Shown here piece by piece: positions 54,980 through 61,892 of a DNA stretch of 64,000 nt. Position 1 is the first letter of the stretch, and each line of letters begins with the position of its first letter. The translations under genes and the position numbers were made by a program. The notes beneath the pieces are model-generated. The model worked only from the letters and a program-made list of their open reading frames with translations, did no database searches and was not told the origin of the DNA. The DNA is taken from positions 3,803,915 to 3,867,914 of the forward strand of contig NZ_JXDL01000001.1 of assembly GCF_001590795.1 (NCBI RefSeq), written 5' to 3'. The stretch is from Bradyrhizobium sp. AT1 (GTDB lineage: Bacteria > Pseudomonadota > Alphaproteobacteria > Rhizobiales > Xanthobacteraceae).

Positions 54980-55064
54980 CATCGAGCTCACCTGAGCATC
55001 GAACTCACCTCAACGTCGAACGCACCTCAACATCGAACTCACCTCAACGTCAAACTCACTTGGA
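54980..55064. repeat. Five tandem copies of a 17-bp unit at the 3' end of the SLATT gene
   Basis: Units start at 54980, 54997, 55014, 55031 and 55048; consensus CATCGAACTCACCTCAA with CGTC variants alternating. The last unit spans the SLATT stop codon (55056-55058). Since 17 is not a multiple of 3, the array is not a protein repeat. Confidence 0.8.
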
Positions 55065-55934
55065 CTGTCTCGTCTGTTTCGCGATCCAGGAGGCGTTCTC
55101 CGCCGACAGGATATTTTCGCAGTCGTTGACGAAGTCCGACAGCGGTGCCTTCGCGCCGTCCACGCGCCGCTGCAGCTGCAATGCCGTTGCGCGATACGTC
55201 ACCACGAGAAAGCTGTAACGCTCCGCCTCGATATGGGCGATCACGGCGCCGCCGAGCGTCGTGAGCACCGCCGTCAGCGCGGCGAAATCGAAGTGGACGC
55301 CCAGAATCACGGGCTTGGCAACAACGCTGGCAACGGCCGTGAGCAACGTCGCCGCTCCCGCCAAGGCCAGCTCCAGGGACCTGAGCTGCGAGGCCGTTGA
55401 TTGGTACGTCTTGGCGCGGTCCTCATAGAACGCGATCTGCTTGCTGGTCCGCCTCGCCAGATATTCGTCGAGCCCGAGAAAAACGCGCGGCGATGATCCC
55501 TGGTCCTTGGCCGGGATCTGCTGCTCGAGCAATTCCTTGGCATCTTCATCGATCTTCTGCAGCTCGGTACGGAGAACGTCGTCCGCCTTGGCCGGATCGT
55601 CATAAGGCGCAGCTTTCGTCGCGTAGCGGTAGGCCTCGCGCTTCAGGCGTTCCGAGATGGCGCGAGAGCGAACCCAGGCCGTGATACGCTCGGGGCCGAG
55701 CAGGCGTTGCGTGAAGAGGGTCGCGAATGCGAGGCATATCGCAGCCGTGATCGCGACCCAGGTGCGGGCATTGGCATTCCCTTCCGGTAGCTGGCTCGCC
55801 ACGGACGCCAACACCGCGCCGAGCGACGACAGGGCGAACACGCACCACCGCGCACGATCGATCGTCGACTTCATGCCATTCGCGGTGGTCGACCATTTGG
55901 CCTGACTATCCGCAACAGACTCCAAGATGGTCAT
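55056..55934 (-). CDS. Double SLATT-domain membrane protein (DUF4231-type, putative effector)
   Basis: A 292-residue protein with four membrane helices in two pairs (about 30-48 and 60-80; about 185-206 and 215-235), i.e. two SLATT (SMODS/SLOG-associating 2TM) units, probably SLATT_3 then SLATT_1. The linker is helical and charged (ELQKIDEDAKELLEQQIPAK). The end, FVNDCENILSAENASWIAKQ, is the typical SLATT C-terminal helix. SLATT proteins are predicted pore-forming effectors in nucleotide-signal-dependent conflict systems. It follows the NDT-like/TPR gene by 91 bases; GGGGAGA precedes ATG 55934. Confidence 0.82.
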   Translation of the reverse strand: MTILESVADSQAKWSTTANGMKSTIDRARWCVFALSSLGAVLASVASQLPEGNANARTWVAITAAICLAFATLFTQRLLGPERITAWVRSRAISERLKREAYRYATKAAPYDDPAKADDVLRTELQKIDEDAKELLEQQIPAKDQGSSPRVFLGLDEYLARRTSKQIAFYEDRAKTYQSTASQLRSLELALAGAATLLTAVASVVAKPVILGVHFDFAALTAVLTTLGGAVIAHIEAERYSFLVVTYRATALQLQRRVDGAKAPLSDFVNDCENILSAENASWIAKQTRQSK

Positions 55935-56025
55935 CGTCGTCTCCCCAAGATGTTTGCATTGAACTCACGGGCAATTGGCGCGATCGGCGGCGCACGTCGC
56001 CCTTGATGAGCGAAGGCGTGTTCGG

Positions 56026-57333
56026 TCACGTCGACGGCAGCTTCTTCTCCAGCTCCTCCAAGCCCGCCTTCAATCCCGGAAGCTCGCTCTCCACGGGCAG
56101 CAGCCCGCGCAAAGCGTCGATGAAGGTCTTGCGCTGCGAGTCCACCGTGTCGAGATTGGCAAATCCATCCTTGGCTATCTGGAGAAAGGCGGCGGCATCT
56201 CCCTGGTAGAGCTTGATCTCCGCGAGGTCGAAATAGCACCAGGGCCGGTCGAATGGCGGCACCTGTTTCAATTGCGCCTCCCGGATGCGGGCCGCGCGCG
56301 CCAGGGCAAGCTGATCCGACTCGGACAGAGCAAGACGGCCATTGATCTGCGCACGCAGCTTCAGGGCGTTGAGCAGCGGATAGGGATGTCCGCCCGAGAC
56401 TTTCATCGATTCCTCGTAGGCCGCAAGGGCGGGCGCAAGGCGCTTGGCGCGCCTGAGGACTCCGCCGAGCGATGCGAGCGCGTCAAACCCCTTCGGGTTG
56501 AGCCTGATCGCCTCGCGAAGGGATGTTTCGCCGGGCGCCGGATCGGAATCGAGTGGCGGCTGCTTGGCGATCTGCGCGACCTTGTTCTCGGCGACCCCCT
56601 TCTCGCGCCAGGCTTCGCTATAGGTCGGCGACGCCGCGGCCGCAGCGGTGAACTGTTCGAGCGCTTCATCCCAGATGTCGTTGTCTCGGCACAACAGGCC
56701 GAGCTTCATCCGCGGTAACGGATTGTTGGGATCGACCGCGACCACCTGGCGATAGATCTCCATTGCACCGGTCACGTTGTAGGCGCGGATCTCATTCTCG
56801 GCCTGTGCCAACAGGTCGTTGACCGGTGGAGACTGCCGCTGCACGTTGAGAGCCTGCCGTACCGGACTGTTGATCCGGTTGCGCTTGAGCGATTCCGTCA
56901 ACACCTGCGTGATCAGCTCGCGCGATTTCTGCGCCTCCGTCGCCGGCGCATACTCGTAGGGAAAAGCCTTGACCGAGGAGATATCGAAGGGCGGGGCGGC
57001 GTTGCCCTGGCGAAAGATCGCGGTGCCGGCCTCACGGGCGCGGTGCCGGACGCCGAGCTCGTACGCGACGTTGAAGTTGAGCCCGCTGATGTCGGCCAAC
57101 GCGAAACGCGAGTATTCCAGATACTCGAACATGTCCTGCGTGATCAATGCCGAGAAGAAGTCCTGATCGGTGCGTCGGGGCTCGAGCTTGCCGCCCTCGG
57201 GCAGGTCGACCACGGCGATCGCGGGGACGAAGATGTCACTGTAGATCGCATTGAAATCGACATCCTTGTCGCCGACTTTCTTCAAACCGAACGGCATGAT
57301 GACGAAACAGATTTTGGAATAATCCATGGCCAT
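56026..57333 (-). CDS. NDT/TIR-like MPFG-domain protein fused to TPR repeats
   Basis: A 435-residue protein. The N-terminal 125 residues open with KICFVIMPFG (MPFG at 13-16), followed by Asp81 in LADISGLN and Glu92 in NVAYELGVRHR: the pattern of nucleoside deoxyribosyltransferase-like and TIR-like nucleotide-processing domains, where the Glu is catalytic. Residues 180-435 are TPR-like helical repeats (AMEIYRQVVAVDPNNPLPRM; ALEQFTAAAAASPTYSEAWR), a likely sensor. It is upstream of, and probably co-transcribed with, the SLATT gene. ATG 57333 has GGGAG 8 bases before it. A defence role is inference. Confidence 0.8.
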   Translation of the reverse strand: MAMDYSKICFVIMPFGLKKVGDKDVDFNAIYSDIFVPAIAVVDLPEGGKLEPRRTDQDFFSALITQDMFEYLEYSRFALADISGLNFNVAYELGVRHRAREAGTAIFRQGNAAPPFDISSVKAFPYEYAPATEAQKSRELITQVLTESLKRNRINSPVRQALNVQRQSPPVNDLLAQAENEIRAYNVTGAMEIYRQVVAVDPNNPLPRMKLGLLCRDNDIWDEALEQFTAAAAASPTYSEAWREKGVAENKVAQIAKQPPLDSDPAPGETSLREAIRLNPKGFDALASLGGVLRRAKRLAPALAAYEESMKVSGGHPYPLLNALKLRAQINGRLALSESDQLALARAARIREAQLKQVPPFDRPWCYFDLAEIKLYQGDAAAFLQIAKDGFANLDTVDSQRKTFIDALRGLLPVESELPGLKAGLEELEKKLPST

Positions 57334-57578
57334 ATCAGGCGCTCCCAAATGCAGCGGAGCAATTGAAAGCTTCATGTTTGCGCAAGATCAACTTCAGGTC
57401 AAGCGTGCCGCGGCAGCTGCGATCCGCCGACGGTGGCAAGCCCTGGCGATTCTTGCCGGCCAGCGGCGCGGTGACCGTGCATCAGGGACGTGGCGGCTAC
57501 CTGCCCCTCGGGCGAATCCCGCCTCCAGCTGGCCCCAAAGTCATTTGACTACGACGCCCTTATCGACGACAAGCCGCC

Positions 57579-57815
57579 ATGGCCAAGAAACCCGGAACCA
57601 ATCCCAAAGGCGAATTCGCCTTTTTCAACGTCTTCTATGAAGACGATTCCCAACGCTCCAACCGCCGCGTGCCCTCCGAGCTGCTCGGCGGCCTCGACGG
57701 CGACGAACCCGCGCGCGCCTTCATCATGGAGCAGGACCGCGAGATCGCGGAGAAGAGCGGCAAGCCGGCGCTCGAGATCAAGCGGATCGAGCGGGTCGGG
57801 GTGAAGAAGAAGTAG
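57579..57815 (+). CDS. Small conserved-looking hypothetical protein, 78 residues
   Basis: Not recognised. Basic ends (MAKKPGTNPKGEF; ERVGVKKK) flank an acidic, charged middle (GGLDGDEPARAFIMEQDREI). Probably a small globular or partly disordered cytoplasmic protein. Its composition and codon use are those of the host genome. Divergent from the NDT-like/TPR gene with a 245-base gap in which I find no other feature. ATG 57579 is preceded by GACGACAAGCC, only a weak ribosome site. Confidence 0.7.
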   Translation: MAKKPGTNPKGEFAFFNVFYEDDSQRSNRRVPSELLGGLDGDEPARAFIMEQDREIAEKSGKPALEIKRIERVGVKKK

Positions 57816-57910
57816 GCGACGCGCCGGGAAGACACGTAAGCTTCATCACAAACAAGAACGGCTAGCCTCGACCCGCCGCTCCTTAGAAGTAAGGCTAGGC
57901 CGAGCTGTTC

Positions 57911-58927
57911 TTACACCACAAGCAATCTATAGAAGCGACTACCTTTGCCGATTGTGGCGAGTGCCTCGAACATGGTGTCGCCAAACTCCGAAGCTGCCGC
58001 CATGTATGAGTGACTATCTTCCTTATTCATAAATCGCTGGATTAGGTCGGCTTCTTGACCGTTGGTTGTCTCTAGGAAGCGATTGTACTGTTCCAAGAGT
58101 TTGTTGATGGTTGGATTGGCATCCTTCAGCTCAGGACGACCTCGAAGCCATTCAAGCCTTCCAGTTGGCGTTAGCTTCGTCATATCCAGCGCGTCCGCTG
58201 GCGTGACTGATTTCTTCGAGTTGTAAATCGTAAGAAGATAGAGCAGAGCCGAATAGCAAGTCAGTAGTCTGCTATGCTTTAATTTATAGTTCTTGAGTTT
58301 TCCGCCCGCCTTCTTGTCCTCAGGCTCTCGCTTCGTGCGAGCCTCATAGTTCACACAAAAAGTCCGCCAAATTCTCAATATGTCGTTGGCCAAGAACGCA
58401 GGCATGAATTCAGCCTGATGGCCTTGATAGTCCCTCCAGTAGCTGTTGATCACACTTTGAACGATCTCTTCATAAACCGCGTCTTCTACAAGCGGCTTGC
58501 TTTCTAAAAGAAGGAGGAGGCGAGCAGTAAACGTATTGGCAACGTCGTCTTTCTCGGTTCCCAGGGTATTGGTGAACTCGTACACCGAATGATGGTCCAA
58601 ATATCGCCCATCACCCGAAAATTCCGGGAAGCCCATCTCTCGAGACCGTTCTATGAGCTCGGCCTGGACGCAGATTTCGTCGAGGTGATTCAGAAGGTTC
58701 TTCTGTCCAAAATCTTCGCCAGAGCCATCAGAGCGAGCAATCCGCTCGCTCCTTCCTGCGATGAAGAGGTCGAGATCGCTGAATTCACTTGCTTCGCAAC
58801 GTCCGAACGAGCCGGTCGCATAGACGCACGCTTTCCCGGAGGCGAATTTAGCCGCACCTGCAAAGTTGGCGCGAAGCTTATCGATAACACTGGAGGAGAA
58901 GTCGCGACGCCTAGCGAGCTCGCTCAT
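57911..58927 (-). CDS. Pol-beta-fold nucleotidyltransferase, GlnD/GlnE-like
   Basis: A 338-residue protein. The nucleotidyltransferase signature is intact: Gly39-Ser40 and Arg43 in ATGSFGR, with Asp51 and Asp53 in SDLDLFIAG, which bind the catalytic metals. After it, VANTFTARLLLLLESKPLVE resembles the GlnD/GlnE region downstream of the active site; the rest is helical (NDILRIWRTFCVNYEARTK). It would transfer a nucleotide to a protein, RNA or small molecule; target unknown. Its start overlaps the exonuclease stop by 17 bases. G+C and codon use (many AT-ending codons) differ sharply from neighbours, pointing to recent transfer. Confidence 0.83.
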   Translation of the reverse strand: MSELARRRDFSSSVIDKLRANFAGAAKFASGKACVYATGSFGRCEASEFSDLDLFIAGRSERIARSDGSGEDFGQKNLLNHLDEICVQAELIERSREMGFPEFSGDGRYLDHHSVYEFTNTLGTEKDDVANTFTARLLLLLESKPLVEDAVYEEIVQSVINSYWRDYQGHQAEFMPAFLANDILRIWRTFCVNYEARTKREPEDKKAGGKLKNYKLKHSRLLTCYSALLYLLTIYNSKKSVTPADALDMTKLTPTGRLEWLRGRPELKDANPTINKLLEQYNRFLETTNGQEADLIQRFMNKEDSHSYMAAASEFGDTMFEALATIGKGSRFYRLLVV

Positions 58928-59558
58928 AAGCACCCTTCCACTCAAATATATTCGCAAATATCTCTGCCTGTTCGATCGCATCGTCGATTGCATGATGCGT
59001 ATGCTGCCGCTTGGACGATAAAGACGGGTCGAGCTTTGAGCGGCCGGCCCGCGAGATCGGTACTCCAGCCTTAACAGCAAATGCGGTCTTTATGTCGAAA
59101 CAACGAGAATAATCGAATGGCGAACCAGCCTTACAGAACTGAACAAAATACCAATAGAGCCATGTCCAATCAAAGCTCAGTGGATAGGCAACGAGTACTG
59201 GCCGGGCGCCGTTTGCGTTCTTTGTGATCCAGCCAAAGGCTTCGGTCATGGCCTCTTGGGGTGCTGCTCCCTCAACGCATAAACGAGCTCGATCTAGTCC
59301 ATTAACGTCCAAAGCTTCCTTCTCGAAGGAGTCGGAGATCGGCTTCAGTTCACGATAAAAGACTTCATCATAATTTTGAGGGCGCGAAAAATTTCGCCCA
59401 TCAAAAGAGCCAGCGTAGACTATTGCGAACGACAAGATTGAATATGGGCCGGGGATTGGACCGTCAGTCTCAACGTCAGCAGAGAAATACAGATCAGACG
59501 TGGCTCCTTCCAGCCGCTCATCGTGCCAAGCACCGAGTTTAGGTGTGCCTATAAGCAT
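58911..59558 (-). CDS. DEDDh 3'-5' exonuclease (DnaQ-like)
   Basis: A 215-residue DnaQ-fold exonuclease with a complete DEDDh set: Asp28 and Glu30 in SADVETDG (ExoI), Asp in YPLSFDWTWLYW (ExoII), and His/Asp in HHAIDDAIEQAEIF (ExoIII). It is stand-alone, so it may be a DNA or RNA trimming enzyme. The last residues overlap the next gene's start by 17 bases, giving obligate translational coupling to the nucleotidyltransferase. ATG 59558 starts MLIGTPKLG. Lower G+C than the flanks; the leader to 59738 has no other feature. Confidence 0.88.
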   Translation of the reverse strand: MLIGTPKLGAWHDERLEGATSDLYFSADVETDGPIPGPYSILSFAIVYAGSFDGRNFSRPQNYDEVFYRELKPISDSFEKEALDVNGLDRARLCVEGAAPQEAMTEAFGWITKNANGARPVLVAYPLSFDWTWLYWYFVQFCKAGSPFDYSRCFDIKTAFAVKAGVPISRAGRSKLDPSLSSKRQHTHHAIDDAIEQAEIFANIFEWKGAYERAR

Positions 59559-59705
59559 AGAAAACTCTAATCCCCTTAGCGGACATTCTTCAGGTCAACA
59601 GTTCCGCTGATAGCGTCGCAAAGCACTCCAACCGTAGTTTAGCCGAATATCTTCCAAATTGAATCGCAATCCACTGCAATTCGGCTCAAGGATAGAATGC
59701 CAGCA

Positions 59706-59727
59706 GCCCTCGGGCGGACCCGAGGGC
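59706..59727 (-). terminator. Hairpin after rpoD
   Basis: GCCCTCGGG, loop CGGA, CCCGAGGGC: a perfect 9-bp stem 12 bases beyond the rpoD stop. No clear T-run on either strand. Confidence 0.6.
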
Positions 59728-59738
59728 AACAACCAGCG

Positions 59739-61892
<2,154 letters not shown>

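Follow-up and report, generated by a model that had tools for sequence, protein, structure and literature searches.

We analyzed a stretch of 64,000 nucleotides (the window) from Bradyrhizobium sp. AT1 (contig NZ_JXDL01000001.1), in which a gene for a DEDDh 3'-5' exonuclease overlaps a following gene for a nucleotidyltransferase (NT), the two lying directly after rpoD (Table 1). Our findings support horizontal mobility of this exonuclease-NT (exo-NT) pair, and we tentatively regard it as a conflict module in which the NT would restrain the exonuclease. A sequence-only reading of this DNA had described a 17-base overlap between the two genes, complete active sites in both products and a base composition lower in G+C than that of rpoD, and each of these observations held, including the coordinates and frames. 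The DEDDh site of the exonuclease comprises D28, E30, D130, H188 and D193, which are invariant in an eight-row alignment, and the NT site comprises G39-S40, D51 and D53. The G+C content (GC) of the exonuclease and NT genes was 50.5% and 50.6%, respectively, compared with 63.1% for rpoD and 65.5% for the whole window, while GC at third codon positions (GC3) was 49% and 58%, respectively, compared with 88% for rpoD. The overlap probably couples translation of the two cistrons.

Table 1. Positions of the exo-NT pair, its motifs and the neighboring genes in the window
Feature	Position	Strand	Remark
DEDDh 3'-5' exonuclease, 215 residues	58911..59558	minus	Cap18-type with 11-residue insert
NT, 338 residues	57911..58927	minus	GS-x10-DxD NT domain and C-terminal helical part; ATG at 58927
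17-bp overlap between the exonuclease and NT genes	58911..58927	minus	
Exonuclease D28/E30, first DEDDh motif	59469..59477	minus	Invariant in 8 of 8 alignment rows
11-residue exonuclease insert, about residues 54-64, F-x-R-P-x-x-Y	59367..59399	minus	
Exonuclease H188..D193, last DEDDh motif	58980..58997	minus	Invariant in 8 of 8 alignment rows
NT active-site motif GSFGRCEASEFSDLD (GS-x10-DxD)	58769..58813	minus	
Low-GC segment, ~1.86 kb	57879..59739		From conserved small gene to rpoD
TPR gene	56026..57375	minus	Weak C-terminal match (28 bits) to CBASS TIR-effector model
SLATT/DUF4231 gene	55056..55934	minus	

Exo-NT pairs were found at eight loci, six of them in four genera (with a broken NT in one) and two on viral contigs, and the exonuclease preceded the NT at all eight, with the cistrons overlapping or abutting. 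The 17-bp overlap was also present in L015 and L016, the overlap was 4 bp in L057 and L084, the cistrons of L086 and L059 were 0-3 bp apart, and in genome G763 the overlap would be ~71 bp if the NT begins at its first ATG. At seven measured loci the GC of the pair was 44-52%, compared with 58-66% for the surrounding loci. A search of 265 Bradyrhizobium genomes with the PADLOC candidate profile PDC-M70A returned 10 matches, 7 of them in full-length genes, and the 3 partial matches (L012-L014) were left out of the counts. Likewise left out were 24 of the 28 genomes from another NT search, which scored below 30 bits and had the NT domain alone covered. The exo-NT pair was present in 3 of the 265 genomes (the window's, G102 and G245), each time directly after rpoD, and the NT-linked type of exonuclease and the NT occurred in these same three genomes. 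One copy, L002 of Bradyrhizobium sp. SSUT77, and L016 are a single locus and were counted once. The three Bradyrhizobium copies showed nonsynonymous divergence (dN) of 0.07-0.18, with synonymous divergence (dS) above 2.5 or saturated beyond computing. The gene-pair search thus bore out the earlier description of a genuine coupled pair by showing its conservation elsewhere. Since order and coupling were kept at eight loci and both genes co-occurred in three Bradyrhizobium genomes, we rejected the explanation that these are chance neighbors in acquired DNA, to which we assign next to no likelihood; the two genes are more than chance neighbors.

We compared the rpoD site across related genomes. 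A search with the end of rpoD in 31 Bradyrhizobium genomes matched 29, of which 28 were other than the window's, and a piece of ~1.5 kb on either side (shorter at contig ends) was fetched from each of these. Neither the exonuclease nor the NT was found at the rpoD site in any of the 28 pieces. In 15 of them a conserved small gene (~57535-57878 in the window) lay 50 to 1241 bp from rpoD, compared with ~1.86 kb in the window; the clearest empty sites (L099, L100 and L108) had a distance of 50-67 bp, and in the other 13 the small gene was not matched within the piece. On viral contig L057 the pair adjoins phage-type regulator and terminase genes, and on viral contig L059 it stands immediately after an integrase, the respective NTs being 48-49% and 54% identical to that of the window. 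Taken together, the empty sites and the viral copies support horizontal mobility of the pair, in agreement with the earlier suggestion of transferred DNA. An all-against-all comparison of neighbors at seven exo-NT loci (the window, L015, L084-L086, L057 and L059) revealed no pair-specific third gene, the only further genes in common being rpoD and dnaG at the two Bradyrhizobium loci; L016, whose flanks are the same as those of L015 and the window, was left out. The pair therefore moves as a two-gene unit. In G763 (L085, 8638-9654) a single in-frame stop, located at a conserved position, interrupts the NT, and the exonuclease is intact, which provides a natural test case for which partner can be spared.

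The exonuclease matched only RNase_T and Rv2179c-like in Pfam, and scored 123.6 bits with the PADLOC model PDLC00753 ('Effector, Exonuclease'). Its sole match in the PDB at E<=0.01 was 7t2s_A (E=1.3e-18), which we take to be the published Cap18 structure. Its sequence places the enzyme in a subfamily of Cap18, an ancillary exonuclease (3'-5') found in cyclic oligonucleotide-based antiphage signaling systems (CBASS); RNase T is a more distant relative. Cap18 is described in a review, as far as its consulted text goes, as a 3'-5' exonuclease acting on single-stranded DNA or RNA (PMC10419184). Relatives of the window's enzyme were found in 91 plasmid records, every one below 60% identity, and four of the seven plasmid regions that we opened hold CBASS operons. 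Identity to five aligned plasmid copies, four of them from CBASS operons, was 33-36%. The Mesorhizobium plasmid locus L053 proved to be a type III CBASS operon encoding cyclase, HORMA, TRIP13, TIR effector and exonuclease. Among 257 Bradyrhizobium genomes the exonuclease query gave 21 matches, of which the three at 83-100% identity were the NT-linked copies. The other 18 (34-39% identity; L157-L174) all adjoin a TRIP13-like gene, as detected with the L053 TRIP13 profile, and apparently belong to type III CBASS. A Cap18-type exonuclease also adjoins apparent type II CBASS genes on L062, an integrase-bearing viral contig.

The NT-linked exonucleases resemble Cap18 over nearly their entire length, but they differ from it in several respects. 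The 11-residue insert was present in all eight NT-linked exonucleases and in none of seven comparison copies (six CBASS-type and one actinobacterial). In addition, 38 positions, six of them in the inserted columns, were invariant in the eight NT-linked sequences (three of which are close relatives) and never shared by the six CBASS-type copies. In the stretch before the FDW motif, the NT-linked exonucleases carry AYPL in contrast to G-F/L-N-A/V. These differences suggest an altered substrate or partner. The window's exonuclease also has no adjacent CD-NTase. Profiles for cyclase, ThiF/E1-E2, JAB, TRIP13 and SAVED/HNH, a set that holds no HORMA profile, found no match around the exonuclease in the window or at the seven other exo-NT loci. 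Membership in CBASS was accordingly rejected, as neither a Cyclase match for the NT nor a CBASS profile match in the surroundings was obtained. The toxin-antitoxin suggestion of the sequence-only reading is supported insofar as both families are otherwise seen in conflict systems.

The motif G39-S40-x10-D51-x-D53 was present in the window's NT and in all 24 NT rows examined. When the NT was scanned against PADLOC at E<=1, PDC-M70A was the sole match and no CBASS Cyclase model was hit; for comparison, the true cyclase of L053 scores 422 bits. The PDC-M70A match amounted to 84 bits over residues 122-294 only, compared with 481 bits for the NT of L017, to which the window's NT is 23-24% identical. 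On these scores the NT is a distant relative, at the family edge, of PDC-M70A. An AlphaFold2 model of the NT built from five sequences had a mean predicted local distance difference test (pLDDT) score of 78.8 and a predicted template modeling (pTM) score of 0.82. Using VIA-align, the model matched DrrA with Z 14.6 and the two halves of GlnE with Z 13.5 and 12.9 over 257-265 aligned residues, values to be read against the observation that mostly helical models with no clear match can reach Z near 14. The next best matches were AadA (Z 8.2) and MNT chains (~7), while Foldseek returned nothing at E<=0.001. We nevertheless favor the DrrA/GlnE match, because the top VIA-align rows are all NT proteins. 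The predicted fold thus appears nearest to the AMPylators DrrA and GlnE, a resemblance that is not proof of function. It points to protein nucleotidylylation more than to the tRNA-end or DNA-end substrate raised in the sequence-only reading. CloB and the CD-NTases were absent among the VIA-align matches listed, which excludes nothing, and HalB was a weak match both for the NT profile (E=0.41) and in the fold search.

Another explanation, in which the NT makes an oligonucleotide messenger, the exonuclease degrades it and an effector is encoded elsewhere, would parallel CBASS, where Cap18 is ancillary to a CD-NTase that makes the messenger and to an effector that is a separate protein. We consider it quite improbable, given that the seven compared loci have no common pair-specific third gene, the TPR and SLATT genes of the window were not found at the seven other exo-NT loci, and the NT matched no PADLOC CBASS cyclase at E<=1.

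We collected 28 distinct NT loci and recorded the partner of each. The partner was a DEDDh exonuclease at 8 (including G763 with its broken NT), an adjacent HD protein at 12, an HD protein 0.5-8 kb away at 3, a TIM barrel similar to PDC-M70B at 3, a histidine phosphatase alone at 1 and a possible 2H protein at 1; one of the 12 adjacent-HD loci, L058, also carries a histidine phosphatase. With the NT profile, 397 genomes of the order gave 8 matches (this genome, the exo-NT genomes G693, G763 and G810, and 4 HD-NT), and 385 genomes of the class gave 6 (this genome, 3 HD-NT, one with a 2H-like neighbor, and G528). A tree of the NT was built from 24 of the 28 loci, leaving out the broken NT of G763 and the same-genus rows L075, L077 and L078. 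Its rows comprised 7 with an exonuclease, 3 with a TIM barrel, 12 with an HD protein (the HD gene being 0.5-8 kb off in two), 1 with a histidine phosphatase and 1 with the 2H-like protein. In this tree partner type tracked the NT clade, the exonuclease clade being supported at 94/98 with the 2H-like row as its sister; 8 of the 21 inner branches reached the higher support mark. Since one NT family has exchangeable partners by clade, it looks like a regulator with modular effectors, and the exchange suggests a device for defence or toxin-antitoxin function that can be switched. An explanation of G528, G636 and G640 (one genus) as lone NTs was rejected, since in all three an HD gene lies 0.5-8 kb from the NT. 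Distances of exonuclease and NT correlated over seven pairs (r=0.80; 62 of 5040 permutations), but r fell to 0.06 (54 of 120 permutations) without L015 and L016, and this test of co-evolution therefore gives no independent support.

The HD partners resemble SAMHD1-type deoxynucleoside triphosphate hydrolases (dNTPases), a known effector type, and carry H112-D113...H121..E124, with the same spacing as the HD motif and HE dyad of CloA (H117/D118 and H126/E129). The HD profile A5 at E<=1e-8 had no match in the exonuclease-clade genomes G000, G102, G245, G763 and G810, and one weak match in G693. Of the TIM-barrel loci, L017 matches M70B at 321 bits, and L082 and L083 match the barrel of L017. Because the PF01261 score of the barrel is below the Pfam cut-off and one copy is annotated as a sugar phosphate isomerase/epimerase, the barrel need not be a phosphoesterase. 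The possible 2H protein, encoded at 878-1489 of L079 after the sister NT, has 204 residues and was so assigned from two HxT motifs 65 residues apart; searches of Pfam, PADLOC, PHROGs and the PDB returned nothing for the 2H family. Several settings of these relatives were also recorded. L004 is the 4499-bp E. coli plasmid pISHS7_5, whose main cargo besides a Rop-family gene is an HD-NT pair with the HD gene crossing the record ends; an HD-NT of this type was present in 1 of 5426 E. coli genomes. L058 (3840-6428), an inovirus-like contig with a Zot-type gene, encodes HD protein, NT and histidine phosphatase consecutively. On a Sinorhizobium plasmid (L082, 1263-3418), an AbiEii/AbiGii-type NT gene lies just upstream of the NT and TIM-barrel pair.

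We next compared the pair with known systems. PDC-M70, a database entry whose name was not found in the literature searched, combines the NT M70A with the TIM barrel M70B; the window's NT is a partial M70A match with TIM-barrel-linked relatives, but its partner is a DEDDh exonuclease instead of M70B, and the pair is not PDC-M70 as defined. Clover, composed of the dGTPase CloA and the NTase CloB, which makes p3diT (PMC12265719), is likewise a two-gene combination of hydrolase and NT, and the HD-NT relatives share its HD/HE spacing. In contrast to CloA, the partner in the window is DEDDh, and the NT-linked HD profile was unmatched in this genome. From the portion of the Clover report available to us, CloB also seems shorter (an operon of 2203 bp with CloA of at least 452 residues) than the NTs of 310-382 residues collected here, an estimate made from operon and protein lengths; no CloB sequence or structure was among the matches obtained. 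CloA entries were not among the best 60 of 77 PDB matches of the HD profile. HepT-MntA (HEPN-MNT) resembles the pair in placing a GSX10DXD NT beside a nuclease, and the window's NT can be aligned in its NT domain with MNT chains (Z ~7), but the nuclease here is DEDDh instead of HEPN, and the NT has 338 residues with a large helical C-terminal part. GlnE and DrrA match the predicted fold over nearly the whole NT, including the C-terminal helical part, but at 11-15% identity, and the hydrolase here is a separate gene of another fold. In Hailong, according to the part of the report consulted, NT-made DNA oligomers restrain the effector (PMC12657230); the logic of an NT-made inhibitor is alike, but HalB is weak by sequence and fold, and the partner differs. 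Taken together, these comparisons indicate that the pair is not CBASS, PDC-M70, Clover or HEPN-MNT as defined, and that it may work like Clover or HepT-MntA.

A further resemblance is to the DUF294 proteins, in which an NT-fold protein also adjoins a DEDDh exonuclease. This arrangement was found at 21 of the best 30 DUF294_C loci (L124-L153), two of them marginal at 31-38 bits, and RNase_T was found in 10 of 10 scanned. An NT with a DEDDh neighbor is thus a recurrent theme, and we found no paper on the widespread DUF294 pairing in the literature searched. The DUF294 NTs are larger (mostly ~600-650 residues), and the exonuclease is of another RNase_T subfamily (at most 19 bits with the EXO profile) and usually follows the NT. 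By analogy, the window's pair could serve a regulatory or RNA-end function outside defence. That is unlikely in our estimation, the pair being sporadic (3 of 265 Bradyrhizobium genomes), low in GC, carried on viral contigs and missing at this site in 28 other genomes, unlike a metabolic locus. The sequence-only reading knew of no description of the pair. Its components are less novel than this implies, as the exonuclease is a member of the Cap18 family already described from CBASS, the NT lies at the edge of PDC-M70A and NT plus DEDDh recurs in DUF294, but we too found no paper on the exo-NT pair in the titles and abstract starts of the literature searched, where a listing in supplements or in figures of the Clover preprint is possible. 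In the portion of that preprint consulted, ~650 CloB homologs are colored by adjacent effector (PMC12265719), and effector exchange was therefore already noted there.

The reading that we favor, as a possibility short of an even chance, is that of a mobile two-gene conflict module in which the NT restrains an effector exonuclease, with a logic like that of HepT-MntA or Clover. In the scheme that we infer for the harmful protein, its restraint, the trigger and the substrates, the exonuclease would be the effector and, when free, would trim DNA or RNA 3' ends, halting growth or phage replication. In healthy cells the NT, translated from the overlapping second cistron, would hold it off, either by attaching a nucleoside monophosphate (NMP) to the exonuclease, as MntA does to HepT, or through a small-nucleotide product that inhibits it, as for CloB acting on CloA in Clover. 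Infection would upset this restraint and release the exonuclease. In relatives, the same NT family is coupled with different partners, chiefly a SAMHD1-like HD enzyme. This restrained-effector reading is supported by the modular partners on one regulator-like family, the SAMHD1/CloA-type HD protein in the sister branch, the MntA motif and precedent, a predicted NT fold resembling the AMPylators DrrA and GlnE, an exonuclease family common to CBASS, and the lack of a further pair-specific gene at the seven loci compared. Mobile settings lend it further support, namely the two phage-type contigs with exo-NT and the inovirus-like contig and 4.5-kb E. coli plasmid with HD-NT. In the parts of the respective reports consulted, MntA carries the GSX10DXD motif (PMC7641770), and mutation of the NT active site in Clover unleashed toxicity of the HD enzyme (PMC12265719).

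Several observations weigh against a restrained effector. In G763 the NT is the broken partner, the reverse of what would be expected if the NT kept a toxic exonuclease in check, barring a recent origin of the stop or an error in sequencing. According to the part of the report consulted, a catalytic mutant of Cap18 left the protection afforded by its CBASS system unchanged (PMC9122588), and the exonuclease family is therefore not a proven effector. The TIM-barrel, histidine-phosphatase and 2H-like partners come after the NT rather than before it, and an isomerase function is possible for the TIM barrel. In the Clover text consulted, CloA before CloB is known from the expression construct alone, so gene order is no evidence for Clover-like logic. 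A Pfam search beside the NT found RNase_T and Rv2179c-like only and no HEPN partner. Three of the seven opened plasmid regions with a Cap18-type exonuclease (Streptomyces, an unannotated Nonomuraea and one Klebsiella) had no visible NT or CBASS genes nearby, and relatives also occur in six large-genome phage records, counted as records.

The main rival, which we judge somewhat less probable than restraint of the exonuclease, holds the NT to be the harmful enzyme, which would modify a cell protein or the 3' end of an RNA with an NMP; the exonuclease would then act as an enzymatic antitoxin that takes the NMP off again, a role it would share with the HD and other partners. Models for such writing and erasing are GlnD, which joins an NT to an HD uridylyl-removing domain, GlnE, and DrrA with its neighbor SidD. 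Most partners are phosphoester-hydrolase types despite their different folds, as expected if all cut the same kind of phosphodiester, and the NT is predicted to fold like protein AMPylators. G763 lost the NT and kept the exonuclease, as expected if the NT were the toxin. The exonuclease is also a distant relative of RNase T, which trims tRNA 3' ends. On the other hand, the intact NTs of G528, G636 and G640 have their HD gene 0.5-8 kb away, which is awkward for a tightly coupled antidote, the swapping of several unrelated eraser folds would be unusual, with a TIM barrel that may be no phosphoesterase, and the HD partner is dNTPase-like, a known effector type. Although this evidence decides for neither, we favor the restrained effector.

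With a little more reserve than for the restrained effector itself, we consider it possible that the pair belongs to a family of immune modules made of two genes, in which an AMPylator-like NT is wired by clade to four or five unrelated effector folds, mostly phosphoesterases, and in which a Cap18-type CBASS accessory exonuclease was here recruited, remodeled with an insert and made an NT-gated effector. If so, the pair would represent an undescribed exonuclease-based branch of defence gated by an inhibitory nucleotide or by NMPylation. Three subjects that are usually listed apart come together in the pair: Cap18, PDC-M70 from the PADLOC candidates, and the combination of NTase and hydrolase on which Clover and HepT-MntA are built. 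If the NT gates the exonuclease, the pair would offer a compact system for asking which substrates Cap18-type enzymes cut and by what means a nuclease is switched by an NT; natural variants in which this NT family adjoins other enzymes would serve as ready comparisons.

Across the small gene from the pair lies a further stretch (55056-57375, minus strand) encoding a TPR protein and then a protein with DUF4231 and SLATT domains. These were considered as third and fourth members of the module and rejected, since tblastn found neither at the seven other exo-NT loci; the stretch is also separately missing in L099, L100 and L108. Because of these two results we do not count the stretch as part of the module, and it is possibly a defence pair of its own.

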